Source: Lachnospiraceae bacterium (GTDB taxonomy: Bacteria > Bacillota > Clostridia > Lachnospirales > Lachnospiraceae). From it: a stretch of 35,857 bases of DNA. Below are positions 3,744 through 27,183 of the stretch, piece by piece. The stretch is taken from assembly GCA_017465845.1 (NCBI GenBank), contig JAFTVH010000161.1:1-35857 (forward strand), in the 5' to 3' direction. Positions within the stretch are counted from its first letter, which is position 1. Each line of letters begins with the position of its first letter. Both the position numbers and the translations under genes were made by a program. The notes beneath the pieces are model-generated. The model saw nothing but the letters and a program-made list of their open reading frames with translations. It had not been told where the DNA came from and did not search any database.

Positions 3744-3771
3744 ATTACCCAAAATGGAAGGAGGAATAGGC

Positions 3772-4134: not shown

Positions 4135-4165
4135 TCCCAGTCAGGAAGAATGGAGGTGATAACAT

Positions 4166-6256: not shown

Positions 6257-6285
6257 TCTGAAATGTAAGATAGGAGGTGGAAGGA

Positions 6286-7971: not shown

Positions 7972-7992
7972 TTATGAGATTACAGGAGGGAT

Positions 7993-8373
7993 GTGAACAG
8001 GTTGGAAGACAAAGAATATAGCAACATATATGCGATTCCTGCAAACTATACGGATTCGGGAAAACTGCTTGGTGGAATGCTGGAGACCAGAAATGCAATA
8101 GAAACATTGCTTTTGGTTATCCTGTTGGGGTATCCGGAATTGTTCTGGATACCGGTATCAACATCCATCCGGATCGTGATTATGACAGTCACACTGATTC
8201 CGCTTGCAGTTGTTTCCATGATGGGAATTGATGGGGACTCGCTATTTCAATATATCGGTCACATGGTCCAGTATCTGTTTCGTAAACGGAAATTACATAT
8301 GAGAAGGGTGGGATACAAATATGACCAGAGCCAGCTCAAAAAGAAGAAAAAAAGCAAAACCAGAAAAGCTTGA
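7993..8373 (+). CDS. PrgI/VirB3-like transfer membrane protein
   Basis: This protein of about 126 residues has a polar N-terminus (EDKEYSNIYAIPANYTDSGKL), two adjacent hydrophobic helices (about 38-58 and 60-78) and a very basic C-terminus rich in KKKKKSK. This is the layout of the PrgI family, the Gram-positive counterpart of VirB3, nearly always directly upstream of VirB4 as it is here. The start is uncertain: GTG 7993 lies only 3 nt after AGGAGG, while TTG 8002 gives the more typical MEDKEY start with a 12-nt gap. The 3' end overlaps virB4 by 53 nt, an unusually deep overlap that suggests tight coupling. Confidence 0.8.
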   Translation: MNRLEDKEYSNIYAIPANYTDSGKLLGGMLETRNAIETLLLVILLGYPELFWIPVSTSIRIVIMTVTLIPLAVVSMMGIDGDSLFQYIGHMVQYLFRKRKLHMRRVGYKYDQSQLKKKKKSKTRKA

Positions 8374-10843
8374 GTTTGTGCAGGATTTTCTGCCGATTAA
8401 GAATATCGCTCACGGCGTGATCGAAACGAAGGACGGTAGATATATCAAGATCCTGGAGATTGAACCAATCAATTTCATGCTCCGATCAGATGAAGAACAG
8501 TATGGTATCATATCATCCTTTGCAAGCTGGCTGAAGATCTCGCCGGTGAAGCTGCAGTTTAAGAGTTTTACCAGAAAAGCTGATTCAGACAAACATATTG
8601 CGATGGTTCGAAAAGAGCTGGAATTAGAGGAAAATGAAGCCTGTAGAAAGCAGGGAGAAGGATACATCCGGTTTATTAAGGATGTGGGAAACAGAGAAGC
8701 GCTTACAAGGCGCTTTTTTTTAATCTTCCAGTATGAGGAAGTACACCGAGGGGACGATGAAGATCCAGGACAGGTTTACAGCACCATGCAGACAGTGGAA
8801 CAAAATGCCAGGGCTTATTTTACCCAGTGCGGCAATACCATTGTGCAGCCAAAGGATCCTGATGAAGCGACTGCAGAGATTCTGTATATGTTCTTTAACA
8901 GAAGATCCTGTGTGGAAGAGACATTTTCAAGCAGGGTAAACCGTGTTGTGGTAGATACCATGGCTTCCAAAGGAAAGATAATCGGAATTGATCCGATCCC
9001 GCAGATAAAGATGTCTCATTTTGTGGCACCCAGAGGAATTGATTTTACGCATCATAATTACATCGTGATGGATGGTCTTTATTATTCCTTCCTGTACATC
9101 AAAGGGAATGGGTTTCCGGGCCGGGCAAGGGCCGGCTGGATGTCATCTCTTATCAATGCAGGGGAAGGGATCGATGTGGATGTGTTTCTGCGGCGTGAAA
9201 ACCGCAGCAAGACCATTGATAAAGTGGCACAGCGTATCCGCCTGAACAGGACAAAGATAAAAGGCATGCAGGACACTTCCACAGATTATGAAGAACTGGC
9301 AAACTCGATTCAGGCAGGATATTTTATCAAGAACGGCATTGCAAACAACAATGAAGATCTGTTTTACCTGTCAGTATTTATAACCGTTTCTGCGAGAACT
9401 TATGAGGAATTATTATGGCGGAAACAACAGATGATTGACATGTTAAAGTCCATGGACATGTATGTGAGTGAGTGCCGTTTTCAACAGGAATCTGCGTTTC
9501 GTGCGGTTATGCCATTTTTACAGATTCCGCCGGAACTGGAAAAGAAATCCCAGAGAAATGTGTTGACCAGTGGTGCGGCTAGTACCTATATGTTTACCAG
9601 CTTTGAGATGTCAGATGATTCAGGCGTACTGTTAGGAGTTAACAGGCATAACAACTCTTTGTGTATCATCGATCTGTTTGATACCAAGAAAAATAAAAAC
9701 GCAAACTTAAACCTGCTTGGTACCAGTGGTGCAGGAAAGACATTTACCCTGCAGCTATTGGCTCTTAGGATGCGAATGAGAGGTATCCAGTGCTTTATCC
9801 TGGCACCGATTAAGGGACATGAGTTCCGTAGGGCCTGCAATAAAATCGGTGGGCAGTTTATACGGATTGCACCGGGATCTCCGCACTGTATCAATATTAT
9901 GGAGATTCGTCATACGCTGGCTCCGGAAATGGAGCTGATCGATGAAATGGATTACAGTGATATGGACTCCATGCTGGCAAGAAAGATCCAGCAGCTGATG
10001 ATTTTCTTTTCGCTGCTGATACCGGACATGACAAATGTGGAAGAACAGCTTTTGGATGAGGCATTGATTAAGACATACGGAGAATTTGGGATTACCCATG
10101 ATAATGCTTCACTTTATGAGGACATGTCCTCCATACCGCCGAAAATAAAAAAAATGCCTATTCTGGGGGATTTACATAGACACTTGTTAGAAAACCCGTT
10201 GACAGAGCGTGTGGCGGTGATTGTGAGCAGATTTGTGACGGGTTCAGCGCAGTCATTCAATCAGCCAACCAATGTAGATCTGTCCAATAAATATGTGGTT
10301 CTGGATCTGAGCGAATTAAAAGGGAAGCTTCTGCCCGTGGGAATGATGATCGCTCTTGACTATGTTTGGGACTGTGTCAAAGCGGACCGCACCAAAAAGA
10401 AAGCCATCATGATTGATGAAATCTGGCAACTGGTAGGAGCTGCATCCAATAAGCAGGCTGCAGAGTTTTGCCTGACTATATTTAAGACCATTCGTGGGTT
10501 TGGTGGTGCGGCGATTTCCGCAACACAGGACTTATCGGATTTCTTTAGTTTGGAGGATGGTAAGTATGGCCGGGCAATTGTCAATAACAGTAAGAACAAA
10601 ATCATCCTGAATCTGGAGCCGGACGAAGCCAGATATGTGCAGGATGTCTTAAAGCTTACCAAAACGGAGATGCGATCCATTACCCGGTTTGAGCGGGGAG
10701 AGGCACTGGTGTATTCCAACAATAATAAAGTGCCTGTGGTAATCAAAGCGTCTAAAGAGGAACAGGAATTGATCACAACAGATCGGGCAGAACTGGAGGC
10801 AATTCTGAAAGAAAGACAAAAACAAAATGCGCAAAAAGCTTGA
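8321..10843 (+). CDS. virB4: VirB4-family conjugation ATPase
   Basis: This 840-residue protein is the motor ATPase that powers assembly of, and transport by, the type IV channel. The N-terminal half (about 1-430) is the VirB4/TraC/CagE domain that docks to membrane partners. The C-terminal RecA-like domain has Walker A GTSGAGKT at 467-474 and Walker B with Asp699-Glu700 in AIMIDEIWQ, both intact. Length is typical for Gram-positive VirB4. It starts inside the PrgI-like gene. Inside the early coding region, 8697-8721, a perfect 6-bp hairpin followed by eight T resembles an intrinsic terminator. The last codons carry the first of three ATGCGCA repeats. Confidence 0.95.
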   Translation: MTRASSKRRKKAKPEKLEFVQDFLPIKNIAHGVIETKDGRYIKILEIEPINFMLRSDEEQYGIISSFASWLKISPVKLQFKSFTRKADSDKHIAMVRKELELEENEACRKQGEGYIRFIKDVGNREALTRRFFLIFQYEEVHRGDDEDPGQVYSTMQTVEQNARAYFTQCGNTIVQPKDPDEATAEILYMFFNRRSCVEETFSSRVNRVVVDTMASKGKIIGIDPIPQIKMSHFVAPRGIDFTHHNYIVMDGLYYSFLYIKGNGFPGRARAGWMSSLINAGEGIDVDVFLRRENRSKTIDKVAQRIRLNRTKIKGMQDTSTDYEELANSIQAGYFIKNGIANNNEDLFYLSVFITVSARTYEELLWRKQQMIDMLKSMDMYVSECRFQQESAFRAVMPFLQIPPELEKKSQRNVLTSGAASTYMFTSFEMSDDSGVLLGVNRHNNSLCIIDLFDTKKNKNANLNLLGTSGAGKTFTLQLLALRMRMRGIQCFILAPIKGHEFRRACNKIGGQFIRIAPGSPHCINIMEIRHTLAPEMELIDEMDYSDMDSMLARKIQQLMIFFSLLIPDMTNVEEQLLDEALIKTYGEFGITHDNASLYEDMSSIPPKIKKMPILGDLHRHLLENPLTERVAVIVSRFVTGSAQSFNQPTNVDLSNKYVVLDLSELKGKLLPVGMMIALDYVWDCVKADRTKKKAIMIDEIWQLVGAASNKQAAEFCLTIFKTIRGFGGAAISATQDLSDFFSLEDGKYGRAIVNNSKNKIILNLEPDEARYVQDVLKLTKTEMRSITRFERGEALVYSNNNKVPVVIKASKEEQELITTDRAELEAILKERQKQNAQKA
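8697..8721 (+). other. Terminator-like hairpin inside virB4
   Basis: AAGCGC (8697-8702) pairs perfectly with GCGCTT (8710-8715) across a 7-nt loop, within a run of eight T (8714-8721). It covers codons for EALTRRFFL. It may cause premature termination or may be a codon coincidence. Confidence 0.4.
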
Positions 10844-12266: not shown

Positions 12267-13421
12267 ATGCTGTATTTCCGCATGGGCAGTCAGCTGCACA
12301 GATTGGTTACAATGCTTTCCGTGGTGGGAGAATTCCCGATGTGTTCGCTGTATCTGTTAGGGAATGAACGTGTTTACAAAGCACTGGTTCATAAACTGAC
12401 AAAGCAGGAAACATTCCGTAATTGCATGACGGGAGAAGAACTCACCTGCAGGTTGTATACTGTGACAGGAAAAGCAAAGTCAAAATCCCTCCGGTTGTAT
12501 AAGGGGGCGCTTCCCATACTGAACTGGCTCCATCCGGATGCTTACCGGTATTATATGACATCCTTTTGGAATCATAGATTCCCGGGCGATTTAAGTCATC
12601 GTGAGAGGAATCACAGAGTGGCGGAAGCGGTTGCATTCTGTATGCGTGTCAGACTGGAATTCAGGCAATACATGCTGCCCACCCTTCAGAACCAGGACCG
12701 GTTAGAAATATTACCGGATACTCCCGTTTTTTATCAGTCTAAGGATCTGAAAAGAATCGGTGACAATGAGATGAACAAAACCATGTTTACCCGGCTGGTA
12801 GGGGCACTATTTTGCGGAAACAGCTGTTATGCGATATACAATACCAGAAATGCTGTTATGAAATGGTCGGGCATGGGTGAGTTTAAGACACTGCATCATT
12901 TGCTTGAGGTCGGAAGACTGAATGGGAAGATTACCAATATCGATTCGGCTCTGCTTATCGGCGAAGATTACAGCGTAGCCATGGATACTCTTATAGAATC
13001 TGGAAAGAACCGCAGGCTGGAATTTCGGTTTGATTCCATATACCATCATATTCATTTTGTACCTATGGATGAATCGGGCATCCGGCTTTTCCGGATCATG
13101 ATTCTGCCAGACTGGAAAAACCGTCTGTTAGATCTGATGTTTGAACCGGAAAGCAGATCCTACGGTCAGGGCTATTTTGAGTATGATGCTTACATAGATG
13201 GGGTATATATCTTTTCACATCTGGACAGCGACCTTGCGAGACTGATGAGATTTCGCGAAGCAGTTCAATCTCAGTATGAGAGATATGAAGTAGTTTGCTT
13301 TACCCACCAGAGGACCTTTGTTCGGGAATACTTGGGAGAGGGAGTAGGAATTAAGACGATTGATTTGGACACAGTGGAAGCTGCACTTGGTCCGGAAAGG
13401 AGGAGCGTGATTGAATGTTAA
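12267..13421 (+). CDS. Conserved transfer-module protein of unknown function
   Basis: This 384-residue protein overlaps the VirD4 gene by 11 nt and follows GGAGGT at 12253. I do not recognise a family. It starts with a hydrophobic stretch (about residues 1-30), followed by a mostly alpha/beta soluble protein with many aromatic and basic residues. Notable pieces are SHRERNHRVAEAVAFCMRVRLEF (about 110-132), FDSIYHHIHFVPMDESGIRLFRIMILPDW (about 250-280) and a C-terminal FTHQRTFVREYLGEGVGIKTID that looks like a Rossmann-type ending. The close coupling to virD4 suggests a role with DNA delivery to the coupling protein, for example as a relaxosome accessory. I do not call it a relaxase: there is no convincing catalytic tyrosine and HUH arrangement. 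Confidence 0.55.
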   Translation: MLYFRMGSQLHRLVTMLSVVGEFPMCSLYLLGNERVYKALVHKLTKQETFRNCMTGEELTCRLYTVTGKAKSKSLRLYKGALPILNWLHPDAYRYYMTSFWNHRFPGDLSHRERNHRVAEAVAFCMRVRLEFRQYMLPTLQNQDRLEILPDTPVFYQSKDLKRIGDNEMNKTMFTRLVGALFCGNSCYAIYNTRNAVMKWSGMGEFKTLHHLLEVGRLNGKITNIDSALLIGEDYSVAMDTLIESGKNRRLEFRFDSIYHHIHFVPMDESGIRLFRIMILPDWKNRLLDLMFEPESRSYGQGYFEYDAYIDGVYIFSHLDSDLARLMRFREAVQSQYERYEVVCFTHQRTFVREYLGEGVGIKTIDLDTVEAALGPERRSVIEC

Positions 13422-15273
13422 AAGAAGGACAATACTGATCAGTGCGCTGGTCATACTGGGATGCGCAGCATTCCTGTATCTAAGTGGAGCACTTGGCCAG
13501 CTGTTAACCAATTATACGGTTTGGATGAAATCGGATGGTATCAGTGGACAAGCCATGATGAAGCCGGTTGATTTGAAGCCTTTTATCTGTATTGCCCATG
13601 CTTTTTCGCCAGCTGGCTTCAAGGGAATGTTATTGATTCTGTTCATTAGTGCAGCGATTTTCTTATATGTCAAATTTCATGATCGCTTTGATAGTAATGA
13701 ATATGATCCAAGAGGATTCGCAAAGAGTAAATCCGGAATCTACGGAACCGCATCCTGGATGAGTGAGAAGGAGATGCATGAAGTGCTGGAGGTCTCAAAT
13801 GTGGACCAGGCACAGGGCACAGTATTAGGAGAATATAAAGGAAAAGCAGTCTGTATGCCAAAAGACACCAGACTCAACCGGCATATTGTGATCTTTGGTG
13901 CATCGGGTACCATGAAGAGCCGTGCCATTATCCGGAATGCATTGTTCCAGGCCATCAAGCGAAGTGAGTCTGTCATAATCACGGACAGTAAAGCAGAGAT
14001 GTACGCGGATACCGCTGAGCTGTTCCGCCAGAGTGGGTATGACGTAAAGGTATTTAACCTGGTAAGCCCGGAGCATGGTGATTCCTGGAATTGCATGGCA
14101 GATTTGTCCGGGGATACGCTGATGGCACAGGTTTTGACTAATGTTATTATCGGCAATACCAGTTCGGGAAAAGGTGATCACTTTTGGGATAACGGCGAGG
14201 GAAACCTGTTGAAAGCCCTGATCCTTCTTGTGGATCTGGATCGAAGCAGGAGCCCGACAGAAAAGCATCTATCTGCAGTATACCAGCTGTTAACTCGTAA
14301 TTCAGAAAGACAGCTTACAGCTATGTTTGAAAAGCTGCCCATGGATCATCCAGCAAGAGCTCCCTATAATTTATTTGCCCAGTCTTCGGATACGGTAAAA
14401 TCCGGCATCATACTGGGATTGGGAACCCGCCTTCAGGTGCTGCAGAACAAAGCGGTCCAGAATATTACAAGTCGGTCTGACATAGATCTTTCAGCACCAG
14501 GGAAAAGAAAATGCGCTTATTATATCATCTTAAGCGACCAGGATACAACGATGGCATTTTTGTCGTCGTTATTTTTTTCCTTCATGTTTATCAGACTGAC
14601 CCGCTATGCGGATTCCCAACCCGACGGGCGCTGCAATGTGCCCGTAAACTTAATCTTAGATGAGTTTAACAACATAGGCAGAATCGGCGGAGCAGAAGAT
14701 GGATCCGATTTTGCGAGGAGCCTTTCTGTGGTGCGCTCCCGTGATATTAGGGTCATGATGGCAGTCCAAAGCTTGGGGCAGTTACAGAATCGGTATGGCA
14801 ACAATCTTTGGAGTGAGATCATCGGTAACTGTGATATCCAGTTGATGCTGGGGTGTACGGATGATGTTACTGCAGAATATTTTTCGGTTCGTTCCGGAGA
14901 TATCTCTGTACAGGTAAATTCAACCATGACCGTAAGGCAGACGATTGCATTAGCCCAGGTGATTCCCCAGTATCGTCATACAGAGGGACAGGGAAAGCGT
15001 AGGCTTCTTACTCCGGATGAAGTGCTGAGGCTTCCGAGTAATGAGCTTTTGTGCATTATCAGAGGCTGTAACATGTTAAAGCTTGAGAAACTGGACTATG
15101 TGAAACATCCGATGTCGAAACAAATTATGAAAGCATCTGTTATGGATTATCACCCGGTACCGGAAGATTACTATACTCCCCAGACTGAGCCGGAACCAAT
15201 AGAGGTGAATCAGGAGCCGGCCAAACCTAAAAAGACGTTATATAATCTGGCAAGGGTACCGGAGGATTTCTGA
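13411..15273 (+). CDS. virD4: VirD4-like type IV coupling protein (T4CP)
   Basis: This 620-residue membrane ATPase brings the relaxase-DNA complex to the mating channel. Two N-terminal membrane helices (about 8-28 and 68-88) are followed by the RecA-like domain. Walker A is GASGTMKS at 163-170 and Walker B has Asp417-Glu418 in LILDEFNNIG. The motif SVVRSRDIRVMMAVQSLGQL is typical of TraG/VirD4. The methionine at 168 inside the P-loop is common in Firmicutes members. Start TTG 13411 is chosen because AGGAGG lies 7 nt upstream and the nearby GTG and ATG are out of frame. The C-terminal 40 residues are Pro/Glu-rich and may bind cargo. Confidence 0.93.
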   Translation: MNVKRRTILISALVILGCAAFLYLSGALGQLLTNYTVWMKSDGISGQAMMKPVDLKPFICIAHAFSPAGFKGMLLILFISAAIFLYVKFHDRFDSNEYDPRGFAKSKSGIYGTASWMSEKEMHEVLEVSNVDQAQGTVLGEYKGKAVCMPKDTRLNRHIVIFGASGTMKSRAIIRNALFQAIKRSESVIITDSKAEMYADTAELFRQSGYDVKVFNLVSPEHGDSWNCMADLSGDTLMAQVLTNVIIGNTSSGKGDHFWDNGEGNLLKALILLVDLDRSRSPTEKHLSAVYQLLTRNSERQLTAMFEKLPMDHPARAPYNLFAQSSDTVKSGIILGLGTRLQVLQNKAVQNITSRSDIDLSAPGKRKCAYYIILSDQDTTMAFLSSLFFSFMFIRLTRYADSQPDGRCNVPVNLILDEFNNIGRIGGAEDGSDFARSLSVVRSRDIRVMMAVQSLGQLQNRYGNNLWSEIIGNCDIQLMLGCTDDVTAEYFSVRSGDISVQVNSTMTVRQTIALAQVIPQYRHTEGQGKRRLLTPDEVLRLPSNELLCIIRGCNMLKLEKLDYVKHPMSKQIMKASVMDYHPVPEDYYTPQTEPEPIEVNQEPAKPKKTLYNLARVPEDF

Positions 15274-15978: not shown

Positions 15979-15990
15979 GGAGCTGCGTAT

Positions 15991-16391: not shown

Positions 16392-17711
16392 ATGTTAATG
16401 AATGCACCAAATCAAGAGATTTCAGAGAACGCTGGAATTCAAACTGGACAGGAAAACCCTGAGTTGGAGGAGATGCTTCGTCTGGACCAGGAACAGGAAG
16501 CGGCAGTTTCCCAGACTGACTCTCAGATAGAGCAAACGGTCTCGCCTTCAGATGACCCACAAGCTGAGCATCAGGAACAGGATGGGAATGGTCAGACTGA
16601 CTCTGGAATGAATCAGGATCAGCTTACCGGTGATGGGTCTGAAGGGGATTCTCCCCAGACTGAAGTGAAACAAACAAGAAAGACTCGAACGCGTAAGAAG
16701 ACCGAGCAAAATCAAACTCAGTCTGACACAGAGGATAGTTCTTCCGGCGAACCGTTGGCGCCTGGCGTCGAAGAGGGCCCTAATACCAAAAGAAAACGTA
16801 CTTACACCAAACCCAGTTATTCCATTTTGTCCATTGATGAGCGCCCCAGCGTTGAAACCGCTGCAGATAAAGCAAAGAATGATTTGCTTGATTTGCTGGA
16901 ATCCCAAAAGACAGGACGTATCTTATCCGGCACCATTCAGGGAATTGAAAGGCCGGCAGATAACCCAGCCCGTTCTCTGGCAGTCATTTATCATGGTGAG
17001 TTTAAGATCATCATTCCTGCAGAGGAAGCGGTGGAGCCGCCAGATGATTTCCGGGGAAGGCTTCCGGAGGATGTACTGCACTATATGCTGACAAAGAGAC
17101 TGGGAGCAGAAGTGGATTATATTGTAAAAGGTATGGATCCAAAAGCAGGCCTGGCAGTGGGCAGCCGCCTGGAGGCCATGCGTGCAAAGCGCAAACAGTA
17201 TTATTTTGGCGCAGACCGGGATGGCAATAACTTGATCCACTCAGGGATCTGTGCGGAAGCAAGAGTCGTATCCGTAATCCGGGCAGGAATCTTTGTGGAC
17301 CTGTTTGGTTTGGAGGTATATATACCGCTTCGGGAATTAAGTTACCAGCGACTGATGGATGCTGCAGGTTATTTTCAGCCCGGTCAGCGAATCTTAGTTA
17401 AGATTCTTGAGGTAGACAGAAGCGACCGAAATCAGATTAAGGTTACTGCTTCCGTGAAGCAGGCAGGAGAGAATCCCTATGAGCAGGCACTTAAGAAATA
17501 TACAGAAGGGAACCGCTATGTTGGTACAGTCAGCATGGTAGATACCAACGGAGTGTTTGTTGCTTTGGATGGAGGCATAGATTGCCTTTGCAGTTACCCG
17601 AAAAGGGGACGTCCGCCCAGAGGAGCAAGAGTAACAGTCCGTATCCTTGGTATTAATCATGAGACAAACCGGATCTGGGGAGCAATCACACATATTGCTG
17701 CAGCAAGATAA
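16392..17711 (+). CDS. S1-domain RNA-binding protein with disordered N-terminus
   Basis: This is a 439-residue protein. Residues 1-150 are low-complexity and rich in Q, E, D, S and T, with a basic patch (KQTRKTRTRKK, then KRKRTYTKP). Three OB/S1-like modules follow: a diverged one (about 175-265), a clear S1 fold (about 288-362, ARVVSVIRAGIFVDLFGLEVYIPLREL) and a C-terminal one (about 372-437, VGTVSMVDTNGVFVALDGGIDCL). S1 proteins bind single-stranded RNA; ribosomal S1-like proteins of ICEs could aid translation of element mRNAs or act as regulators. The gene has its own GGAGG site after a terminator and is followed 15 nt later by the YbjN-like gene. Confidence 0.75.
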   Translation: MLMNAPNQEISENAGIQTGQENPELEEMLRLDQEQEAAVSQTDSQIEQTVSPSDDPQAEHQEQDGNGQTDSGMNQDQLTGDGSEGDSPQTEVKQTRKTRTRKKTEQNQTQSDTEDSSSGEPLAPGVEEGPNTKRKRTYTKPSYSILSIDERPSVETAADKAKNDLLDLLESQKTGRILSGTIQGIERPADNPARSLAVIYHGEFKIIIPAEEAVEPPDDFRGRLPEDVLHYMLTKRLGAEVDYIVKGMDPKAGLAVGSRLEAMRAKRKQYYFGADRDGNNLIHSGICAEARVVSVIRAGIFVDLFGLEVYIPLRELSYQRLMDAAGYFQPGQRILVKILEVDRSDRNQIKVTASVKQAGENPYEQALKKYTEGNRYVGTVSMVDTNGVFVALDGGIDCLCSYPKRGRPPRGARVTVRILGINHETNRIWGAITHIAAAR

Positions 17712-17726: not shown

Positions 17727-18140
17727 TTGAACCATTTGGAACTGAGTGTGACGGAGCAGAAGCGTCGTAAGGAAATTGTAAAACATGCAAGAGGAATTGT
17801 ATTAAAAGAAATGGTTGTGGAAGCATGTGATGAAACATCGTTGATGCTCACGTATAGAGGGTATTATCTGCAGATCTCATTTTCAGAACTTCATCCTTTG
17901 ATGGTGTTTTGTCTGGCTAAAGCATTGCCCAAAGCAGGGCTTAACAGGCAGTGTCAGGTGATCAACGAATTGAATCTGCACAGTGTACTGGGAAGCCATG
18001 CGATTAACAATGACATTGGTTGCTATTCTTATAGAGCAACCCACTGGCTTGATACACAGGTGGACATCAGCCGTTTTTATGAAATTCTGGACCGGTGCGT
18101 GGAGGAAGCACAGCGAGGATACTTAAAACTGGCAAGTTGA
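17727..18140 (+). CDS. YbjN/secretion-chaperone-like small protein
   Basis: This 137-residue soluble protein starts at TTG 17727, 6 nt after AGGAGG. The pattern of an N-terminal helix, sheet strands (SLMLTYRGYYLQISFSEL), then INELNLHSVLGSHAINND, GCYSYRATHWLD and a C-terminal ISRFYEILDRCVEEAQRGY helix resembles the YbjN/type III chaperone fold. The resemblance is by eye only. It is encoded with the S1-domain protein, so the two may act together. No catalytic residues are evident. It ends the gene group before the surface-protein block. Confidence 0.5.
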   Translation: MNHLELSVTEQKRRKEIVKHARGIVLKEMVVEACDETSLMLTYRGYYLQISFSELHPLMVFCLAKALPKAGLNRQCQVINELNLHSVLGSHAINNDIGCYSYRATHWLDTQVDISRFYEILDRCVEEAQRGYLKLAS

Positions 18141-18200: not shown

Positions 18201-19229
18201 ATGAAACGATACGCTATATTGTTCATGGCACTTACAATGTTTGCTTTAACCGCATGTTCTAAGGAAGCTTCGAGTGAGGAGACCAGGGAATCTAAGTCCG
18301 CATTTACTTCTCAGGAGCAGAGAAAGGACCAGGAGGTGGTAAAAGAGCAAGAACCCAGTAACACTTCTGCTTTAAAAAACGAGGATGCAAAAACAGCTAC
18401 GGAAGAATCAAAAGTGGCAGAAAAGCAGGAGATCGAGAACGGGAAACAGGAATCGAAGGAAAAAGCAGAATCTAAGGAATCTGATGGGAAGGATAAAGAG
18501 TCTTTAAAACAGGAATCCGAGAAAAATAATAGCAGCGGATCAGAAAAGACTGATAAATCCAAGGAAGGAAATAACGTGAAGCCTACAGAAACTCCTGTGA
18601 AGGTTCCGGAGAAGCCTACAGAAACACCGTCAGTAACGGAAAAGCCGGAGGTTACACCGGAACCGACCCCGGAGCCTACACCGGAACCGACGCCTGAGCC
18701 TACACCCGAACCGACCCCGGAGCCTACGCCAGAACCAACACCGGAGCCTACTCCAGAACCAACGCCCGAGCCTACGCCAGAACCGACTCCAGAACCAACT
18801 CCAGTTCCTACCCCGGAGCCGACACCAGAGCCGCCCGCTCCAGAGGTGACTCCGGATACTGGTGAGCAACAGCCGCAGGAACCATCTGCACCTGCCGTAC
18901 CGGAAGTTACAGCTGGTTTTGATGCGGGGATGGCCAGTGAGCTTGTGGCTCTTGTGAATGCAGAGCGGGAAGCAAGAGGAATCGGTACGGTGAGTGTCAA
19001 AGACAGTCTGGTAGCGAAAGCAGAGGAAAAAGCGTTAAATGGAGGCAGCGGAAGTGGTGTGATATCATGCCGTGGAACCGGTGCAACCAGTGCTGCTATA
19101 GTGGTTGAAAGCTGGAAAAAGGATTGGCCGGATGGCACCTGGATGACTACCAACTGGAAATATGTTGGCATTGCATGTTATGTAGATGGAGGTACCTATA
19201 CCTGGGTTGCAGTGTTTGGTGCCTATTAA
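18201..19229 (+). CDS. Lipoprotein with PTPEP spacer and degenerate CAP/SCP domain
   Basis: This 342-residue lipoprotein has signal peptide lipobox LTAC with the lipidated Cys at 19. Residues 20-130 are highly charged (K, E, S, Q), probably extended. Residues about 150-215 are a PTPEP repeat spanning the wall, and 230-342 form a CAP/SCP-like domain: MASELVALVNAEREARGIGTVSV at the start and YVGIACYVDGGTYTWVAVFGAY at the end. The usual histidines (SH and H-x-x-N positions) are missing, and the core is shortened to about 100 residues, so any metal-dependent or catalytic activity is unlikely. It may be a binding protein on the cell surface. A GAAA-loop terminator follows 28 nt after the stop. Confidence 0.75.
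   Translation: MKRYAILFMALTMFALTACSKEASSEETRESKSAFTSQEQRKDQEVVKEQEPSNTSALKNEDAKTATEESKVAEKQEIENGKQESKEKAESKESDGKDKESLKQESEKNNSSGSEKTDKSKEGNNVKPTETPVKVPEKPTETPSVTEKPEVTPEPTPEPTPEPTPEPTPEPTPEPTPEPTPEPTPEPTPEPTPEPTPEPTPVPTPEPTPEPPAPEVTPDTGEQQPQEPSAPAVPEVTAGFDAGMASELVALVNAEREARGIGTVSVKDSLVAKAEEKALNGGSGSGVISCRGTGATSAAIVVESWKKDWPDGTWMTTNWKYVGIACYVDGGTYTWVAVFGAY
18650..18835 (+). repeat. PTPEP-coding tandem repeat
   Basis: About a dozen units of a 12-bp (Thr-Pro-Glu-Pro) repeat, with synonymous variation among CCGACC, CCTACA and CCAACG codons. The variation suggests the array is selected at the protein level, while slippage can change its length. Confidence 0.8.
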
Positions 19230-19256
19230 CAACTGAATATGGAACTTATAAATAAG

Positions 19257-19281
19257 GACACTCGAAAGGGTGTCTTTTTTT
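19257..19281 (+). terminator. Intrinsic terminator before surface adhesin gene
   Basis: GACACTC (19257-19263) and GGGTGTC (19268-19274) form a stem capped by a GAAA tetraloop, followed by seven T. It is 13 nt before the GGAGG site of the adhesin gene. Confidence 0.85.
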
Positions 19282-19304
19282 GAGCAAAAAATATGGAGGT
19301 TATG

Positions 19305-22300
19305 ATGACTAAAAAGAAAAGATGTAGAGTCTTAAGTTTTTTGTTAGCTGTCGTAATGATGGCTTCCTCTTTTGTGTCCAATGCCCCTGTTGTTTTCGCG
19401 CAGGAGCCTGAGCTGACTGAGCATGGGATATCTGTCTTAGAGGCCGAGTACGGTACTGTCACAGTTAAGGACGAACTGAGTATGGCAGTGGCAGGGACAG
19501 AAGTGCATGTTTTTGCACAGGCACAGGAGGGATATAAGGTAAATCAGATCCTTGTCAATGGTGGTGATGTGGAGATTACTCAGATTACTGATAGTGAAAA
19601 TGAATATCAGTTTATGATGCCGGATTCAGACGCACAGATCCAGGCAGAATTTGTAAAGGAGGAAGTGGAAGGTGAAACTGAAGATGAAGCTTCCTTACAG
19701 GATTCCCAGGACATTACGGATCCGGTACCGGTGGAAGATGAAACTTCCGAAGAGGAAGAGGCACCAGTAGGAACCGTATCCGGGAATGATATTTCTGAAA
19801 CCGTATCCGGAGGCGATGTGCTGGTGGATCCTACGGAAGAATCAACAGAAGTTACAGAGCCAGAGGTTGATGAGCCGGCAGAGAAAATAACCGGTGTTTA
19901 CTTTGAGTTCCAGGACACTGCAGAGATTCTTGAGCTTGCAGAAAATGGTCTTGATCTGGAAGATTTCTTCCAGTATTCCATTTGGGGATTTTTGGATATT
20001 GAAGACCTTCGCTATCTGGTTGCCAATCAAATGGAGCTGGAGGATCTGTTTGATGTGATTGAAGGAGAGATTCCTGCAGCATCCGAAGAGATTCAGACGA
20101 TGGTTGAAAAGTACCAGGAGCGTTTTATGCCGCGTATGAGAATATCTACGTTTGCAACAAGGAATGCGATTACATCCCCAACAGCAACCGTTTCTATTAC
20201 TGGGAATGTTTCTGATTCCAGACTGGGAACGATCTCTGCATTCGGCGGTGGTGATCATGGTAACATGTTAAGAATTACATTGGATGGCTATTCTGCATTC
20301 TGCGCTCAGTATGGTGCATCCTGTCGCTCCGGTATGACCTATACGAAAGTAACCGGTGATGAGATCGGTATTGACAGAGGACAGCAGTACCTGTTGTACC
20401 GTATCATTGGGTGGTATTACGAAGCACAGCAGATCAATGATAATACCGGTAACTATGCCATCACGCAGGCAGCTGTATGGCTGGTAAGAAATGGCCAGTG
20501 GAGTGATGCTGCGACTATGGCTGCTGCAATTAAGCCTATGATCGAGAAGGTGCTTGTACTGGACGATGCTACAAGCCTTGCGCTGTTTGAAGGTATGGCA
20601 AACTGGGTAAATGATGAGAACAACCAGCCCCAGGTAGGTATTGATTTCTGGTACAATGGCCCGAATCAGTATCTGGTTACCGTAGGTGGTGATACTTATA
20701 TTGAGACAGAGGACCCGGAATACTCAGCTCATGTGAAAATCTATAAGACAGATGCTGTAACCGGAAATGGAATCAATAGTGATGCTCAGTTTAAGATTTA
20801 TACAGAAGACGGAACAGATACCGGTGCTACATTCAGTAAATCCGGTCATGTATATACTTCTTCCACACTGATCAAGGATGAAGAGCACAGCACTTTTTAT
20901 GTACAGGAAGTTGGCGTGCCATCCGGTTATCTGGGAGATGGTGGAAAGTATTATTTTACCATTGAAGATGGCGATAACGATGCAGAAAAAGTGATTACCA
21001 ATAATGGCAGTTCTTTTGCCAACAATCCCATGTGGGTTCAGGTAACGCTGACCAAAACAGACGCTGTTACAGAAAAGCATCTGGAAGGCGAAGCAAAATT
21101 TATTGTTGGATCAGATCGTGGTAATATGAGCCAGACCGTTACTTTTACCAAGCAGGCAAATGGAACATACCTTTCCAGTAAGGTTTATTATAACGAGTCA
21201 AACCAGGGCCAGTTCTATTTGCAGGAAGCAAAAGCTCCCACGGGCTATAACACAGACACACAGAAGTATTATTTCACTGTGGATGCAGGTAGTCATGGAA
21301 CAACAAAGACCATTACCAACAATGGTGTGGATTTTGAAAACCAACCATACTGGATTCAGATTTCTATTCCGAAGGTGGATGCCGTAACCGGTATGGCACT
21401 GGAAGGGAATGCCGCATTTATGGTAGCTGCAGAATCTGGTAATTTGAGTGTTCCGGTTTATTTCCAGAAACAGGAAGACGGATCCTACCTCTCCAGTAAG
21501 ATCTTTTATAATGAGTCTAATCTGGGAAAATTCTACGTGCAGGAAACAAAGGCAGTAGAAGGATATGAGCTGGATTCCAAGAAGTACAGTTTTACCATTG
21601 AAGAGGGAGACCATGGGAAGACCAAGAAGATCACCAACCAGGGTGAAGTTTTTGGCAACCAGCCTTTCTGGGTACAGATTCTGGTTCCTAAGACTGATTC
21701 CGAAACCTTGAATGCGATTGCAAATGATGCACAGTTTACGGTTACTGCTTTAAACGGCACATTGAGTCAGCCTGTGACCTTTGAAAAGAATACAGATGGC
21801 TCTTATCTTTCCAGCAAGGTATATTACAACGAATCCAATAAGGGACAGTTTTATCTGCAGGAAACCAAAGCACCTGAAAATTACTATGGCGACTGGGCAG
21901 ATGAAGAGGCGTCCAAAATAGCAGGAAGCAATACCAACAAAGAGAAATATGCATTTACGGTAAGCAAGGAAACCCACAAAAAGACACTTACGATCACCAA
22001 CCAGGACGAATTCTTTACCAATGAGAGAGTCAAAGGAACGGTTACCGTTTCCAAGATCGATGTGGAAGCCGGAAAATATGTAACCGGCGATATCGCTCAT
22101 GGTGATGCATCTTTGGATGGTGCGGTATACGGTCTGTATGCCAAGGAAGACATCCTGTATCCGGATGGTACCAGTGGCGTGAAATATCCGAAAAATGCAC
22201 TGGTAGTACAGGGAACAATCCAGAATGGGAAGCTTACCTGGGAGGATCTGTATCTTGGTTCCTATTATGTGAAGGAGATTACACCTCCTACCGGATACCT

Positions 22301-25300
22301 GAAAGATACCAAAGAATATCCGATCACATTAACCTATGAAGATGAAACGGTGGAAATCGTAACAGATCAGACTACTGTGGATGAACAGGTTATGAAGCAG
22401 GCGTTCCGTCTTCTGAAAATGGAAGGGGAAAGCCAGAATGAGCAGGAAGGTCTGGCAGGTGCAGGATTTAAGGTGTATCTGTTAAGTGACTTAGGAATCG
22501 ATGTACACGGAAAATCCGATGATGTCCTGTTAAAAGAAGTGATGGAAAAATATCCGGACTATGCAACCGGTCTGGACGAAAACGCTCTTGCCAAGGTTTA
22601 TGAAAATGATCCATCTGCAGTACTCACCTATAATGCAGTACAGGAAGCATTGGGCAGTGTTGGTCTTAGTGAGATTGGGGAGAATTATTACCAGCTAAAT
22701 GAGATCTTTACCAATGCAAAAGGTTATATGGATAGTCCGGAGCTTGCATATGGTACCTACGTGGTAGTAGAGACCACAGTACCGGATAATACATTGATTC
22801 AGATCAAGCCGTTTATTGTACATGTCAACAAGGACAGCAGAGAAGTGCAGTATCAGCGTTATTTCCTGGATCGGGATTTCACTGCGAAAATTAAAGTAAT
22901 AAAGATGGATGCAGATACCGGAAAGGCTGTATTACAGGAAGGTATCTCCTATAAGATCTACGATTTGGATAACGAAAAGTATGTGCGGATTCCGGTTGTT
23001 GAAGACAACAAGGAGATTTTCAAGGAAGTATTTACTTCCGATACAGAAGGTTACATTCTGACCGATGCAGCGCTGCCTTGCGGTCGATACAGGATCGAGG
23101 AGGTTCAGGGACCTGAAGGATTCTACAATGAGTTTGTTGGTACGGAAGGTGTACTCGGAGCGGTAGAATTTGAATTGAATTCAGATCAGGCATACGAAAT
23201 GAGTCAGGTATCCGGAGATGCAGTAGTAACGTTTACTTATTCTAACAAAGAAACCAGAGGTCTTCTTACCATTGAGAAGCTTGGCGAACTTTTGGTAGGT
23301 GCTGAAAATGTACCGTTCTTCCCGTTACTGTTGAGTGCAGGGGAAGATGAATCGGAAGACAAGAAAGAAGATATCCAGTTTGTTTACGAGAAGCTTCCTC
23401 TTGCAGGTGCTGAATATACCATTGAAGCAGCTGAAGATATCTATACACAGGATCATCAGTTGGATGAGTCTGGTAACCGCACAACCTGGTTCAAAGCCGG
23501 AGAAATTGTCGCAGTTGTTGAGACCGGCGATGAAGGTTCCATAAACAGCGTGAAATATCCTACCGGTGGATATACGGAGCATCCGATTGTAGAAGTGATT
23601 CACTGTGGAGAAAATGGTCAGGTTTCCATTACATTGCCCCTGGGAAGTTATAAGGTATATGAAACCAAAGCGCCTTATGGATTCCTGCATACAGATGAAG
23701 TAAAAGAGATCACCTTTACCTGGGAAAACCAGAGCGAGGAGCTGGTATTTAACTCCACACCGGCTACAGATGAAACCGGTATGACGACCTTTGAGAATGA
23801 ACGTGTAAAACCGATTCCAGAGGAGGATTTTGATCAGATTGGTGTAGGAATCTACAAACATGATAAGGACACCAAGGAACCTGTAGAGGGTACTGTGTTT
23901 GGCCTTTATACCTGCGATCCGATTTATGATACGTTTGGCAACCTGCTTGTTTTAGAGGATATGCTGCTGGCCGAAGCAGTGACTGATGAAAATGGTTTTG
24001 CTTATTTTGATGTAGATATTCCGTATATGTCCCCGGCACGCCTGGAGCGTAGAATGGACTACAACACCGGTGATTATTACATCGTGGAGCATTCCGTACC
24101 GGATGGATTCTTCTTAGACAGCACACCGTTGTACGTCCATTTTGAGTATGAGGACGAGCACACTCCTTATGTGGTAGTGCAGGCGAAGCAGGAAAATATT
24201 TCTACTTCCGTGGATATTTTAAAGACAGAGCTTAAGAATATGAATCCGGTTCCCGGAGCTGTGCTTCAGGTGATTGACAAAGCAACCGGTGAAGTGGTTC
24301 ATGAATTTACTTCCATGGAAGAGGCAACCAACATCAGACGTCTGAAACTGAGTACACCGGAGGCAGAAAATGTTTATATCTTGAGAGAAATAGCTCCTGC
24401 AGCCGGATATGTAACAGCAGAAGATATCGAGTTTAAGCTGGTACAGTCTGTGGATGAAGACGGAAATCCTCTGATGAAGGCGGACGTATATGTGCGTCAG
24501 GCGACTGAGAAACAGGTGAAACAGACCGGTATGATCAAATCCGATCTGGAAGGAGCAGAGTCTGCAGTTATTTATGCTGCATGGGAACTGGAAGATGAAA
24601 GACTTACGCTCTTTGTCAACGAAGAGATTCCGGAAGAATCCTTAGCGCAGGTGGTAAGAGAAAGCGATTTTGCAGATCTTACCTTCACAGAAGTTTATTT
24701 TGCGCAGGGAGAGCTGAAAGGTTTTTATGAAGAGCTTGTTGTAAAAGAGAATCTTCTGACAGCAATCATTGACTTCTTTACAGGGGATGATGAGGAAGAG
24801 GAAACTCAGTATGTTTGGACCAAGGTATCCGATGCAACTGTTGTGATGAAAGATGATGTGACCAAGGTGCAGATCAATAAGTATGATATTACAGATGGTG
24901 AGCCAGTAATTGGTGCGCAAATGGAAATCACAGATCTGTCCGGAAACGTAATTAAGAGCTGGACAACCACTGAGGAAGACTATTATATCGAAATGCTTCC
25001 GGTAGGAGAGTACATTCTGAAGGAAACTCTGGCACCTACAGATGATGGATATGTAAAGGCCGAAGATATTCGCTTTACTGTAGAAGACGACGGCAGTATT
25101 CAGAAAGTAAAAATGGCAGATGATTATACCAAACTGGATCTTGCCAAAGTGGATGTGGCAGGAGAAGAGATTCCCGGTGCCCATATGGTATTAAAGGATG
25201 CCGAGGGTAATATTGTCGATGAATGGGATTCCACAGAGGAACCACACCGCATTGAGTACATTAAGCCCGGTGAATATACACTCATAGAAGAGCTTGTACC

Positions 25301-25832
25301 GGATACTTATGTACAGGCAGAAGAGATTACCTTTACGGTAGAAGAAACAGGAGAAGTCCAGAAGGTAGAAATGACGGATAAGTATACCAGAGTAATCATC
25401 CAGAAGCTGGATGCAAACAATAAGACACCGCTTAAGGGTGCGACACTTGCCATCTTAAATGAAAAAGGCGAGGAAGTGTATACCTGGGTGTCTGATGGAA
25501 CGCCTTACCGCATTGAAAGAATCCCTCATGGAAAATACACACTGGTAGAAAAGAGCAGTCCGGCAGGATATTATAAAACAGACAACATTTCCTTTGAGAT
25601 TACCACAGAGGATATTGATAATTCTGTAATCATGCTGGATGAGCCGATTCCGGAACCTGAACCGACTCCGGAACCTCCTGCACCGGTACCGCCTCAGCCG
25701 ATTCCTAAGCTTGGATTTGAGGACAGTAATCTTTATCTGGCAGTGGCCTGTATGGCACTTGCATCTGCAGCATGCATTACTCTGATTGTAATCCGTGCGA
25801 AGAAAAGAAAAAGTAAAAGAGACGACTCATAA
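19305..25832 (+). CDS. Giant thioester- and Cna-B-domain surface adhesin
   Basis: This 2175-residue wall-anchored protein has a signal peptide of about 32 residues, cleaved near VFA-QEP. A bacterial-repeat/InlB-like domain follows (about 40-105, ending FMMPDSDAQIQAEF), then an acidic linker. Next is a thioester domain with Cys333 (SAFCAQYG) and Gln388 (AITQAAVW), the pair that forms the covalent-binding Cys-Gln bond. Then come four tandem Cna-B domains of about 106 residues (from about 477), several longer Cna-B/SpaA-like domains, and three to four short ones near the end. The pattern K(T/V)D, QE(T/A)KAP and F-x-N-x-P supports Lys-Asn isopeptide bonds. The tail is a Pro-rich region, IPKLG, a hydrophobic helix and KKRKSKRDDS. 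IPKLG replaces the usual LPxTG. ATG 19305 has GGAGG 5 nt upstream. Likely role: covalent attachment to host or partner cells. Confidence 0.9.
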   Translation: MTKKKRCRVLSFLLAVVMMASSFVSNAPVVFAQEPELTEHGISVLEAEYGTVTVKDELSMAVAGTEVHVFAQAQEGYKVNQILVNGGDVEITQITDSENEYQFMMPDSDAQIQAEFVKEEVEGETEDEASLQDSQDITDPVPVEDETSEEEEAPVGTVSGNDISETVSGGDVLVDPTEESTEVTEPEVDEPAEKITGVYFEFQDTAEILELAENGLDLEDFFQYSIWGFLDIEDLRYLVANQMELEDLFDVIEGEIPAASEEIQTMVEKYQERFMPRMRISTFATRNAITSPTATVSITGNVSDSRLGTISAFGGGDHGNMLRITLDGYSAFCAQYGASCRSGMTYTKVTGDEIGIDRGQQYLLYRIIGWYYEAQQINDNTGNYAITQAAVWLVRNGQWSDAATMAAAIKPMIEKVLVLDDATSLALFEGMANWVNDENNQPQVGIDFWYNGPNQYLVTVGGDTYIETEDPEYSAHVKIYKTDAVTGNGINSDAQFKIYTEDGTDTGATFSKSGHVYTSSTLIKDEEHSTFYVQEVGVPSGYLGDGGKYYFTIEDGDNDAEKVITNNGSSFANNPMWVQVTLTKTDAVTEKHLEGEAKFIVGSDRGNMSQTVTFTKQANGTYLSSKVYYNESNQGQFYLQEAKAPTGYNTDTQKYYFTVDAGSHGTTKTITNNGVDFENQPYWIQISIPKVDAVTGMALEGNAAFMVAAESGNLSVPVYFQKQEDGSYLSSKIFYNESNLGKFYVQETKAVEGYELDSKKYSFTIEEGDHGKTKKITNQGEVFGNQPFWVQILVPKTDSETLNAIANDAQFTVTALNGTLSQPVTFEKNTDGSYLSSKVYYNESNKGQFYLQETKAPENYYGDWADEEASKIAGSNTNKEKYAFTVSKETHKKTLTITNQDEFFTNERVKGTVTVSKIDVEAGKYVTGDIAHGDASLDGAVYGLYAKEDILYPDGTSGVKYPKNALVVQGTIQNGKLTWEDLYLGSYYVKEITPPTGYLKDTKEYPITLTYEDETVEIVTDQTTVDEQVMKQAFRLLKMEGESQNEQEGLAGAGFKVYLLSDLGIDVHGKSDDVLLKEVMEKYPDYATGLDENALAKVYENDPSAVLTYNAVQEALGSVGLSEIGENYYQLNEIFTNAKGYMDSPELAYGTYVVVETTVPDNTLIQIKPFIVHVNKDSREVQYQRYFLDRDFTAKIKVIKMDADTGKAVLQEGISYKIYDLDNEKYVRIPVVEDNKEIFKEVFTSDTEGYILTDAALPCGRYRIEEVQGPEGFYNEFVGTEGVLGAVEFELNSDQAYEMSQVSGDAVVTFTYSNKETRGLLTIEKLGELLVGAENVPFFPLLLSAGEDESEDKKEDIQFVYEKLPLAGAEYTIEAAEDIYTQDHQLDESGNRTTWFKAGEIVAVVETGDEGSINSVKYPTGGYTEHPIVEVIHCGENGQVSITLPLGSYKVYETKAPYGFLHTDEVKEITFTWENQSEELVFNSTPATDETGMTTFENERVKPIPEEDFDQIGVGIYKHDKDTKEPVEGTVFGLYTCDPIYDTFGNLLVLEDMLLAEAVTDENGFAYFDVDIPYMSPARLERRMDYNTGDYYIVEHSVPDGFFLDSTPLYVHFEYEDEHTPYVVVQAKQENISTSVDILKTELKNMNPVPGAVLQVIDKATGEVVHEFTSMEEATNIRRLKLSTPEAENVYILREIAPAAGYVTAEDIEFKLVQSVDEDGNPLMKADVYVRQATEKQVKQTGMIKSDLEGAESAVIYAAWELEDERLTLFVNEEIPEESLAQVVRESDFADLTFTEVYFAQGELKGFYEELVVKENLLTAIIDFFTGDDEEEETQYVWTKVSDATVVMKDDVTKVQINKYDITDGEPVIGAQMEITDLSGNVIKSWTTTEEDYYIEMLPVGEYILKETLAPTDDGYVKAEDIRFTVEDDGSIQKVKMADDYTKLDLAKVDVAGEEIPGAHMVLKDAEGNIVDEWDSTEEPHRIEYIKPGEYTLIEELVPDTYVQAEEITFTVEETGEVQKVEMTDKYTRVIIQKLDANNKTPLKGATLAILNEKGEEVYTWVSDGTPYRIERIPHGKYTLVEKSSPAGYYKTDNISFEITTEDIDNSVIMLDEPIPEPEPTPEPPAPVPPQPIPKLGFEDSNLYLAVACMALASAACITLIVIRAKKRKSKRDDS
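20733..22030 (+). repeat. Four tandem Cna-B domain repeats
   Basis: Related units begin at about 20733, 21042, 21360 and 21678 (steps of about 309-318 bp). Each starts V/I-x-(I/L)-x-K-(T/V)-D and contains a YLSSKVYYNES-like segment in units 2-4. They can recombine to vary adhesin length. Confidence 0.8.
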
Positions 25833-25845
25833 AATGTGAGTATTA

Positions 25846-25877
25846 AGAGGGTGTATCTTCGGATATGCCCTCTTTTT
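25846..25877 (+). terminator. UUCG-capped terminator between adhesin and sortase
   Basis: A 12-pair stem (AGAGGGTGTATC with GATATGCCCTCT, two G-U pairs) is capped by TTCG and followed by five T. It sits 13 nt after the adhesin stop and 16 nt before the sortase start, so sortase would depend on readthrough or another promoter. Confidence 0.85.
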
Positions 25878-25892
25878 ACAGAAAGGGTGTGT

Positions 25893-26585
25893 ATGAACGA
25901 AGATAGAATAGCCATTATGTTTGACCTGATTACAGGCATTGTGACGGTCATTATTATTGGTATTGTCATTTTGATGATACCATATCAGAAGGCTTCACAG
26001 AGGGACTCAAAGGAAGCTGTCATTATTGATGAATATCTGGAAGAGAAGCAGGCAGATATATCGCCGGTACCGAAGCCAGGCAGTGCTGCATCTGAGTCTG
26101 ATACTGCAGAGTTGGTCCAATCGGAGTATGAGCGGCCAGATAATAATACTGCAGCTGTGTCCAAGCAATATTATAAAGGTACGGTGGATAGTATTCTTGT
26201 CATAGACAAAATCGGTCTGGCGAAAGCAATTATCCGAGGGTCAGAAAATGATTATAATCTCTCCCGGTATCTGTTTGTGACAGCGGACCAGACATCTGTA
26301 CTTGGAGTAGATAATTATGTGATATATGGGCACTGTTCCCAGACTTATGGACACAGCTTTAACCGGTTGGACGAGATGCAGGTTGGTGACAACTTCCAAT
26401 TGATTCAGGGAACGGAAACATATCAGTATACTGTGACGAATATTCAGCTGGAACTTAGAGAGAATGCATCGCCCCTTCTTAGCACCGGGACCAATACCGT
26501 ACAACTGGTATCCTGTGAGAAGAAACGAGTGGAAGGATTCCCGGAAAAGAGATTGATTATTGTGACAGCAGAAATAGCGTCATAA
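25893..26585 (+). CDS. Sortase, probably dedicated to the adjacent adhesin
   Basis: This 230-residue transpeptidase has an N-terminal membrane anchor (about 8-30) and a stalk of about 55 residues. The sortase barrel starts at YYKGTVDSILVIDKIGL. The catalytic triad is visible: His147 in IYGHCSQTYG, Cys208 in QLVSCEKK and Arg220 in EKRLIIVTAE. The Cys motif is LVSC instead of the common TLxTC, so I do not place it firmly in a class; parts look class B-like. ATG 25893 follows GAAAGGG; an upstream start at 25836 would run through the terminator hairpin. Its neighbour carries the unusual IPKLG sorting motif, so this enzyme probably recognises that signal. Confidence 0.85.
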   Translation: MNEDRIAIMFDLITGIVTVIIIGIVILMIPYQKASQRDSKEAVIIDEYLEEKQADISPVPKPGSAASESDTAELVQSEYERPDNNTAAVSKQYYKGTVDSILVIDKIGLAKAIIRGSENDYNLSRYLFVTADQTSVLGVDNYVIYGHCSQTYGHSFNRLDEMQVGDNFQLIQGTETYQYTVTNIQLELRENASPLLSTGTNTVQLVSCEKKRVEGFPEKRLIIVTAEIAS

Positions 26586-26616: not shown

Positions 26617-27183
26617 ATGAAAAAGTTGAAAAAGATCCTAATTACCTGCACATTTATCATGAGTATTTTCTGCTTTTGCTGTATTCCGGTAAAAGCGGAT
26701 ACAGATGGAACAGAACTAAATATACTGGAGCCATCCAAACTGGAGATTCAGTTAGGGCAGGACTGGAGCGGCGTGCAGTTTCAATTAAAGACTGATGTTG
26801 GATTGTATCCGGAAGAAATTACAGTAGGAGAAGATGGAGTACTCAGATTAGAAATCGGAGGGAGCAGTACCTACATACTGATCTGTTTAAATTCAGAAGT
26901 GGCAGCGCCAAGCCCGGACCAGACAGATAGTACACCTGTTTTAGAGGACTCAGATGATGCAGAAACAGATCCTTCTGAATCAGAAACTGCAGAAGAGAGT
27001 GTAACGGAAGATGCGGCAACTACGAATGGAAATACAGGTACCGTGGCAGGCATTCCGATTATGCATTTACTGTTGTTCTGTGGTGGGCTTTTGATATCGG
27101 TGGGAACGCTGATAGCGATTCGCGTGATCTCCAATAAGAAAAGAGACGTATATGAGTATGACGATGATGAGGAAGATGAATAA
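26617..27183 (+). CDS. Small anchored surface protein with acidic cytoplasmic tail
   Basis: This 188-residue protein has a signal peptide (cleavage near VKA-DTD), an outer domain of about 75 residues with SKLEIQLGQDWSGVQFQLKTDVGLYPEEI, and an acidic Ser/Thr/Glu linker. One membrane helix follows (IMHLLLFCGGLLISVGTLIAI), then a basic stop-transfer and a DDDEEDE tail. No LPxTG or IPKLG motif is present, so it is probably a type I membrane protein and not sortase-anchored. It is 31 nt after the sortase and may be a partner of the adhesin-sortase system. Family not recognised. Confidence 0.65.
   Translation: MKKLKKILITCTFIMSIFCFCCIPVKADTDGTELNILEPSKLEIQLGQDWSGVQFQLKTDVGLYPEEITVGEDGVLRLEIGGSSTYILICLNSEVAAPSPDQTDSTPVLEDSDDAETDPSESETAEESVTEDAATTNGNTGTVAGIPIMHLLLFCGGLLISVGTLIAIRVISNKKRDVYEYDDDEEDE

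Follow-up and report, generated by a model that had tools for sequence, protein, structure and literature searches.

Why should a conjugative element carry, beside a giant cell surface adhesin with an unusual sorting signal, a sortase gene of its own? The question is raised by a DNA stretch of 35,857 nucleotides from a Lachnospiraceae bacterium (assembly GCA_017465845.1, contig JAFTVH010000161.1), here called the window, which spans one whole contig (C144, 35857 bases) of the assembly. At positions 19305–26585 it encodes a thioester adhesin that ends in IPKLG where LPXTG would be expected and, directly after it, a sortase. A preliminary description of this DNA had regarded the two as a co-evolved pair of substrate and enzyme. 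We consider it probable that both genes, together with a lipoprotein gene in front of them, form an exchangeable and self-sufficient adhesion block of a Lachnospiraceae conjugative element, in which the element's own sortase would anchor a mating-pair adhesin. Judged by the similarity of its VirD4 to the CD1115 family (390 bits, cut-off 250) and of its VirB4 to the CD1110 family (268.5 bits, under the cut-off of 325), the window carries a conjugative element.

The block became apparent by comparison with sister elements. When one genome of each species was scanned with the S1-domain protein encoded upstream of the block as a marker, 23 loci were obtained, including those of Blautia parvula, Blautia schinkii and Schaedlerella arabinosiphila. 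An adhesin was readable in 14 of the 23. The others end before it (L140, L142, L155 and L159; L numbers are our locus handles), run off the contig (L154, L157), end without an adhesin (L156) or are not this element (L160); in L158 the slot holds a protein of 1434 residues with a hydrophobic basic tail and neither a recognisable motif nor a Pfam match nor a sortase, which was not counted as an adhesin. Among the 14 sisters, several look near-identical (L139/141/144/153 and L145/149/150). L118 and L119, seemingly duplicates of L139 and L147, were left uncounted, and L121 also has VPKTGD and no sortase. In all 14 sisters, the slot contains a thioester adhesin of 1500–1549 residues that scores over the Pfam TED cut-off and ends in VPKTGD (split into two open reading frames in L150), and no sortase accompanies it. 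A lipoprotein gene lies 5' of the adhesin in nine of them, and none was seen in L139, L141, L144, L148 and L153. A profile built from 48 sortases found no match in the 23 loci or in L118, L119 and L121; it did find the window sortase and five controls, the latter belonging to the profile's own training rows.

Around the slot the elements are conserved. VirD4 could be matched in 20 sister loci, with identities of 68–78%, and on the right flank the genes starting at 26617 and 27558 are 39–48% and 63–69% identical in the 14 sisters. Between the flanks, neither the lipoprotein nor the sortase matches anything in the sisters, and the adhesin reaches 24–27% identity at stalk level only; its thioester domain found no sister adhesin by phmmer, even at E 10. 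Similarity at the DNA level stops at the latest at about 18242–18265, inside the 5' end of the lipoprotein gene, and restarts at about 26701. Because similarity is lost here while the flanks are conserved, lipoprotein, adhesin and sortase (about 18243–26585) differ as a block. The idea of a unit is thus upheld for the block as a whole, with 14 of 14 readable sisters having another adhesin and no sortase, but not for the supposed match between the LVSC motif of the sortase and IPKLG, as the sortase pairs described below make clear.

Two further observations concern the slot. In 8 of the 14 sisters, a Fic-family protein is encoded after the adhesin and before the conserved gene that comes next, as counted by an open reading frame of 382 residues; in L139 (16587–17732) it scores 85.5 bits for Fic_N and 84.2 bits for Fic. 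L122 was considered as proof of a second swap and found ambiguous, having no conserved flank beyond a 37-residue match and S1 remnants. Its first 9200 positions (1–9200) hold the 3' end of the S1 gene, 94% identical to that of the window over the last 67 residues, a broken S1 gene, and downstream of these another lipoprotein-like gene, an adhesin of 2053 residues and an LSTC sortase.

The adhesin reading frame (19293–25832) codes for 2179 residues, or 2175 when counted from the MTKKK start at 19305. Its stalk matches Pfam SpaA with 394 bits over 13 stretches, which agrees with the many Cna-B domains noted before and would fit the tandem isopeptide domains of TIE adhesins. By itself the thioester domain scores 17.0 bits, under the Pfam cut-off of 22. 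PF08341 was matched at E <= 0.1 by 11 of 14 aligned family members, the window included, and a profile of the thioester family found the solved SaTIE-TED (6fx6) with E 9.1e-6. With this match, the FCAQ sequence and its conserved cysteine, the window domain most probably adopts the thioester-domain fold with a [YFL]C motif. L062, its closest relative, is 39% identical to the window adhesin over the searched region but speaks against this assignment, as the whole protein does not match Pfam TED at E <= 0.1; among plasmids, no relatives of the domain were found. The host genome has a second thioester adhesin (G000:C64, L070; G and C numbers are our handles for genomes and contigs), cut by the contig end and located behind a lipoprotein-like gene. 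Another common class of thioester adhesins, of about 1560–1800 residues, has LPQTGDN at its end; a small lipoprotein-like gene often precedes these adhesins, and no sortase was seen adjacent to them (L064, L066, L067, L069, L071, L074, L075, L076 and L078).

Which residues could form the thioester? The preliminary description had named Cys333 and Gln388. The cysteine (337 if counted from 19293) stands, as it was kept in 22 of 22 aligned domains, the window included, so that a loss in relatives was not seen. Gln388 is equally conserved (22/22), yet we rejected it as the partner because it belongs to the TQxxW motif, whose glutamine is reportedly dispensable for bond formation (PMC6194298, PMC4450167). 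In the solved thioester domains described there, the bond-forming glutamine lies on a late strand, 129 (CpTIE), 171 (SaTIE) or 204 (EfmTIE86) residues after the cysteine. By this spacing Gln455, 122 residues after Cys333 in the sequence GPNQYLVTV, is the better candidate for the thioester-forming residue; its equivalent in L062 (GPNQYLLTA) follows the cysteine after 127 residues. The residue preceding Gln455 is Asn, and the published weak motif has a hydrophobic residue there.

At the other end of the adhesin, the IPKLG motif is followed by a hydrophobic stretch and KKRKSKR, in line with the tail first described. Compared with an LPXTG-type signal, Pro, Gly, hydrophobic stretch and basic tail are all present and position 4 is Leu instead of Thr. 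A PxxG sequence alone is weak evidence for a sorting signal because the linker before IPKLG is proline-rich. The motif would gain its weight from its position before the hydrophobic stretch, as with VPKTGD of the sisters, and from the adjoining sortase. In the host genome, a DNA pattern for IPK[LF]G gave five matches, of which only that of the window resembles a sorting signal. A search with an LPXTG model found 11 weak places there, four above the cut-off, and the host protein ends readable as signals are VPATGDD, SPATGDE, APETGDD, VPKTGES and one APDTSD, none with Leu. Of 18 readable ends among the 22 thioester-domain relatives, 16 are PxTG, one is LPKLG (L073) and one VLTG-like (L083). Some candidates for such signals were dismissed by eye: IPKFG in L162, another of the five host matches, lies 44 residues from the end and sits in a seemingly multi-membrane protein, and the IPNLG/IPKLG-like tails in L191 (open reading frame of 181 residues) and L190 (202 residues) resemble ends of SipW-type signal peptidases.

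That the next gene encodes a sortase with an LVSC motif was confirmed: Pfam Sortase (PF04203) scores 55.4 bits over a cut-off of 26.6, and the alignment places catalytic His, Cys and Arg, the Cys in a QLVSC motif. The ATG at 25893, 60 bp downstream of the adhesin, is the more likely start, because the listed GTG at 25836 lies before a strong hairpin and was therefore rejected. This hairpin (z −4.9; 0 of 200 shuffles as stable) was not listed by a consensus terminator scan; as a probable terminator it may keep sortase expression lower than that of the adhesin. To no class could the sortase be assigned, as NCBIfam scores stay under the cut-offs for classes C (39.6 vs 160), D (30.5 vs 165) and E (25.7 vs 160). 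In the tree it falls, with support 100/98, outside a group of ten rows that holds the LSTC sortases, among them the two host sortases compared, and that we take to be class B-like, and it is thus not placed in class B either. Instead it joins seven other sortases from within the family (support 99/92), on a long branch (1.76) that was flagged by the program.

Close relatives of the sortase were sought in 299 genomes of the family, 101 of the genus and 391 of the class, each set containing its own genome, and the best other sequence was 33% identical; in viral contigs, genome contigs, plasmids and phages none were found, and a search of the remaining 100 genomes of the genus with the sortase alignment gave nothing at E <= 1e-12. 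A Pfam sortase search of its own genome missed the window's sortase, so absence in such searches is no proof. A homologue with an ordinary LPxTG beside the same sortase did not turn up, but neither did any close sortase homologue at all.

Could the sortase be matched to its odd signal? We compiled 26 pairs of sortases and neighbouring candidate substrates, with one gene intervening in L191, L212, L216 and L136. Two of the seven group members, L191 and L212 of the same genome (G247), lie near secreted-looking proteins that end in APNLG and have no Pfam match over cut-off. Leu at signal position 4 occurs in three of three pairs from the group (window, L191, L212) vs 0 of 23 others (p 0.0004), or in 3/5 vs 0/23 (p about 0.003, by hand) when L203 and L213 count as misses; these values are descriptive, L191 and L212 coming from one genome and the rule having been formed on the same data. 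Left out of the pairs beforehand were the group members L203 and L213, the group members L198, L199 and L200, for which no candidate substrate neighbour was seen, sortases without a readable neighbour, and L190 (LPKTG), L193 (VKTG) and L195 (IPKTG), all with Thr. The proposed covariation of LVSC sortases with IPKLG-like motifs was not borne out. Three loci (L214, L215, L216) have an LSC sortase next to or near an LPQTG protein, and an LLTC sortase lies near APNLG (L212). Ser before the catalytic Cys goes with Leu in the signal in 2/5 vs 1/21 pairs (one-sided p 0.085), and we rejected it as a specificity match for Leu. In L203 (8189–12261) and L213 (4386–10021), the sortase genes overlap the 3' ends of genes for SpaA-type adhesins whose signals are not recognisable as LPXTG, and one of these adhesins carries T-Q ester-bond domains.

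Several findings weigh against an exchanged, self-sufficient block. Among the part of the window's open reading frames that was scanned, no relaxase or integrase was identified, and the contig may be incomplete. Moreover, nothing in the base composition seems to mark the block as a recent arrival, because its GC content at third codon positions (0.42–0.44) equals that of its direct neighbours (0.44 before, 0.40 after); VirB4 and VirD4 have 0.49, and in whole-gene GC the lipoprotein (0.50) exceeds the backbone (0.45). This composition would be expected if the block were ancestral and nothing had been swapped in, the sisters having lost the sortase while their adhesins drifted to VPKTGD. Such an ancestral block is quite unlikely, however, as the lipoprotein and the adhesin head lose similarity while both flanks stay alignable, and the window thioester domain is not linked to any sister adhesin by phmmer.

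The remaining adverse findings concern the sortase. L203 and L213 directly follow SpaA-type adhesins without PxLG. The highest identity to the window sortase (30% over 150 columns, E 3.9e-17) is that of L179, which adjoins LPKTG and falls outside the group; no other sortase is closer. Approximately unbiased tests reject neither a placement of the window sortase with L010/L179/L180 (p 0.067) nor one with all 30 other non-LSTC sortases (p 0.264). With the long branch, these results made us reject a firm clade rule for PxLG, and it seems unlikely that an unclassified group of sortases specialised on PxLG, cutting after Leu, was captured by the conjugative element as private anchoring that makes its mating adhesin independent of host sortases. 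Furthermore, the LPKLG adhesin of L073 has no adjoining sortase, and nothing in the genome concerned (G253) matched the sortase alignment at E <= 0.001, so that some other sortase may handle PxLG there. One might thus suppose that the window sortase is general-purpose or unrelated, its position coincidental, and that IPKLG either is anchored through a host sortase or stays unanchored. Leu alone would need no special enzyme, given that streptococcal sortases favour LPXLG over LPXTG as stated in a review (PMC9126251), which was also the sole source of LPXLG when LPXLG and IPXLG signals were sought in the openly licensed literature. This reading is nevertheless improbable: the VPKTGD sisters lack a sortase, and the sole element of the set that departs from VPKTGD has both IPKLG and a sortase.

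For the adhesion block with its own sortase, the following mode of action may be envisaged. The adhesin would be secreted and retained by its C-terminal hydrophobic stretch, until the neighbouring sortase cuts IPKLG between Leu and Gly and joins the adhesin to the cell wall. The long stalk, stiffened by isopeptide bonds, would hold the thioester domain outward, where it could bond covalently with a nucleophile, e.g., a lysine, on a partner surface. The most likely partner would be a recipient cell, because in related elements, too, the slot is occupied by a thioester adhesin, and precedents make a role of the adhesin in mating contacts plausible. Its own sortase would free this version of the adhesin from host sortases, whose apparent substrates end in PxTG.

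Thioester adhesins in conjugation and a sortase with odd signals on a conjugative transposon have both been published, and the window cassette is an unusual version of a known device. The thioester adhesin of pLS20 is described as needed for efficient conjugation (PMC8092201). Like the window adhesin, this TIE protein (p34) bears a thioester domain on a Cna-B stalk and is encoded on a conjugative element. As described there, however, a sortase gene is absent from pLS20 and a typical sorting signal from the adhesin, whereas the window has both a sortase and a signal; the pLS20 domain is of class II with a modelled Cys68–Gln256 pair, and the spacing of 122 in the window is nearer to class I (CpTIE, 129). 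In C. difficile, the conjugative transposon 023_CTn2 (and 1-UHL of RT017) likewise combines a sortase with putative collagen-binding substrates. By the published description, their proximal I/TPKTG signals lie, as here, outside the preference of the core sortase, and it is suggested that they may be processed by the sortase of the element itself (PMC6814731); unlike IPKLG, these signals retain Thr. C. difficile SrtB itself is reported to cut (S/P)PXTG between Thr and Gly and to leave LPETG and NPQTN peptides uncut (PMC4155245). With SfbI, CpTIE, BaTIE and SaTIE (Walden et al., Miller et al.; PMC4450167, PMC6194298), the window adhesin shares, as far as these proteins are described there, the Cys motif, TQxxW, isopeptide stalk and C-terminal anchor; it differs by IPKLG instead of LPXTG, and its thioester is predicted from sequence. 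The nearest counterparts in position are the VPKTGD adhesins, e.g., of Blautia schinkii (L151) or Schaedlerella arabinosiphila (L145), with the same slot, a lipoprotein before them, a thioester domain and 10 SpaA stretches; they differ by the missing sortase, a head not detectably similar by phmmer and an ordinary PKTGD signal.

The adhesin might instead be colonisation cargo that binds host tissue, mucus or diet fibre and spreads as an accessory trait, not for mating. Such a function was proposed by the authors of the 023_CTn2 study (PMC6814731), and a thioester adhesin of a pathogen, SfbI, is reported to bind its host covalently (PMC4450167). We regard colonisation as possible yet on the unlikely side, since a thioester adhesin was kept in the slot of 14 of 14 readable sisters, more than is usual for accessory cargo. 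How mating cells make contact is poorly understood for transfer among Gram-positive gut bacteria. A slot that constantly holds a thioester adhesin, with two types of signal and with a sortase solely in the case of the signal that is not PKTG, offers a natural comparison, which could be used to test both the role of covalent adhesins in mating and the dependence of elements on host sortases. A natural PxLG sortase, if true, would also be of interest to protein-ligation chemists.

Table 1. Features of the block and its surroundings, with positions in the window.
Feature	Position	Strand	Remark
VirB4-like transfer ATPase (context)	8321..10843	+	NCBIfam conju_CD1110 268.5 bits, under cut-off 325
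VirD4-like coupling protein, CD1115 family (context)	13411..15273	+	NCBIfam NF045973 390 bits, cut-off 250
S1-domain protein, marker of the element family	16392..17711	+	65–74% identity in the 14 sister elements of the slot count
Conserved protein, 137 residues, last fully conserved gene 5' of the block	17727..18140	+	58–66% identity, 14 sisters
Lipoprotein, first gene of the block	18201..19229	+	Pfam CAP very weak (E 0.18); sisters without tblastn match
Giant thioester adhesin with signal peptide, thioester domain, SpaA/Cna-B stalk and IPKLG signal	19305..25832	+	
Predicted thioester Cys333 (337 if counted from 19293), in FCAQ	20301..20303	+	Cys in 22/22 aligned domains, window included
Gln388 of TQAAVW helix motif, not the expected bond-former	20466..20468	+	Conserved 22/22
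Gln455 in GPNQYLVTV, candidate thioester-forming Gln	20667..20669	+	122 residues after Cys333
IPKLG sorting motif, then hydrophobic stretch and KKRKSKR at C-terminus	25701..25715	+	
13-bp hairpin between adhesin and sortase, with UUCG loop and following U run; likely intrinsic terminator	25845..25874	+	−23 kcal/mol
Sortase, 230 residues from ATG; N-terminal hydrophobic segment; His147, Cys208, Arg220	25893..26585	+	Pfam Sortase
Protein of 188 residues, first conserved gene 3' of the block	26617..27183	+	39–48% identity, 14 sisters

Beyond the block, a DUF3268 RNA (Rfam RF02966) was found at 27296–27412 on the plus strand, scoring 101.8 bits with a gathering threshold of 65.3, upstream of the gene at 27558–28043. 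On the left side, a promoter with a 12/12 match to the sigma-70 consensus (TTGACA-18-TATAAT; 15578–15607, plus strand) precedes two small genes at 15652–16329, coding for 108 and 112 residues, which were matched in just two sister loci, L138 and L155.

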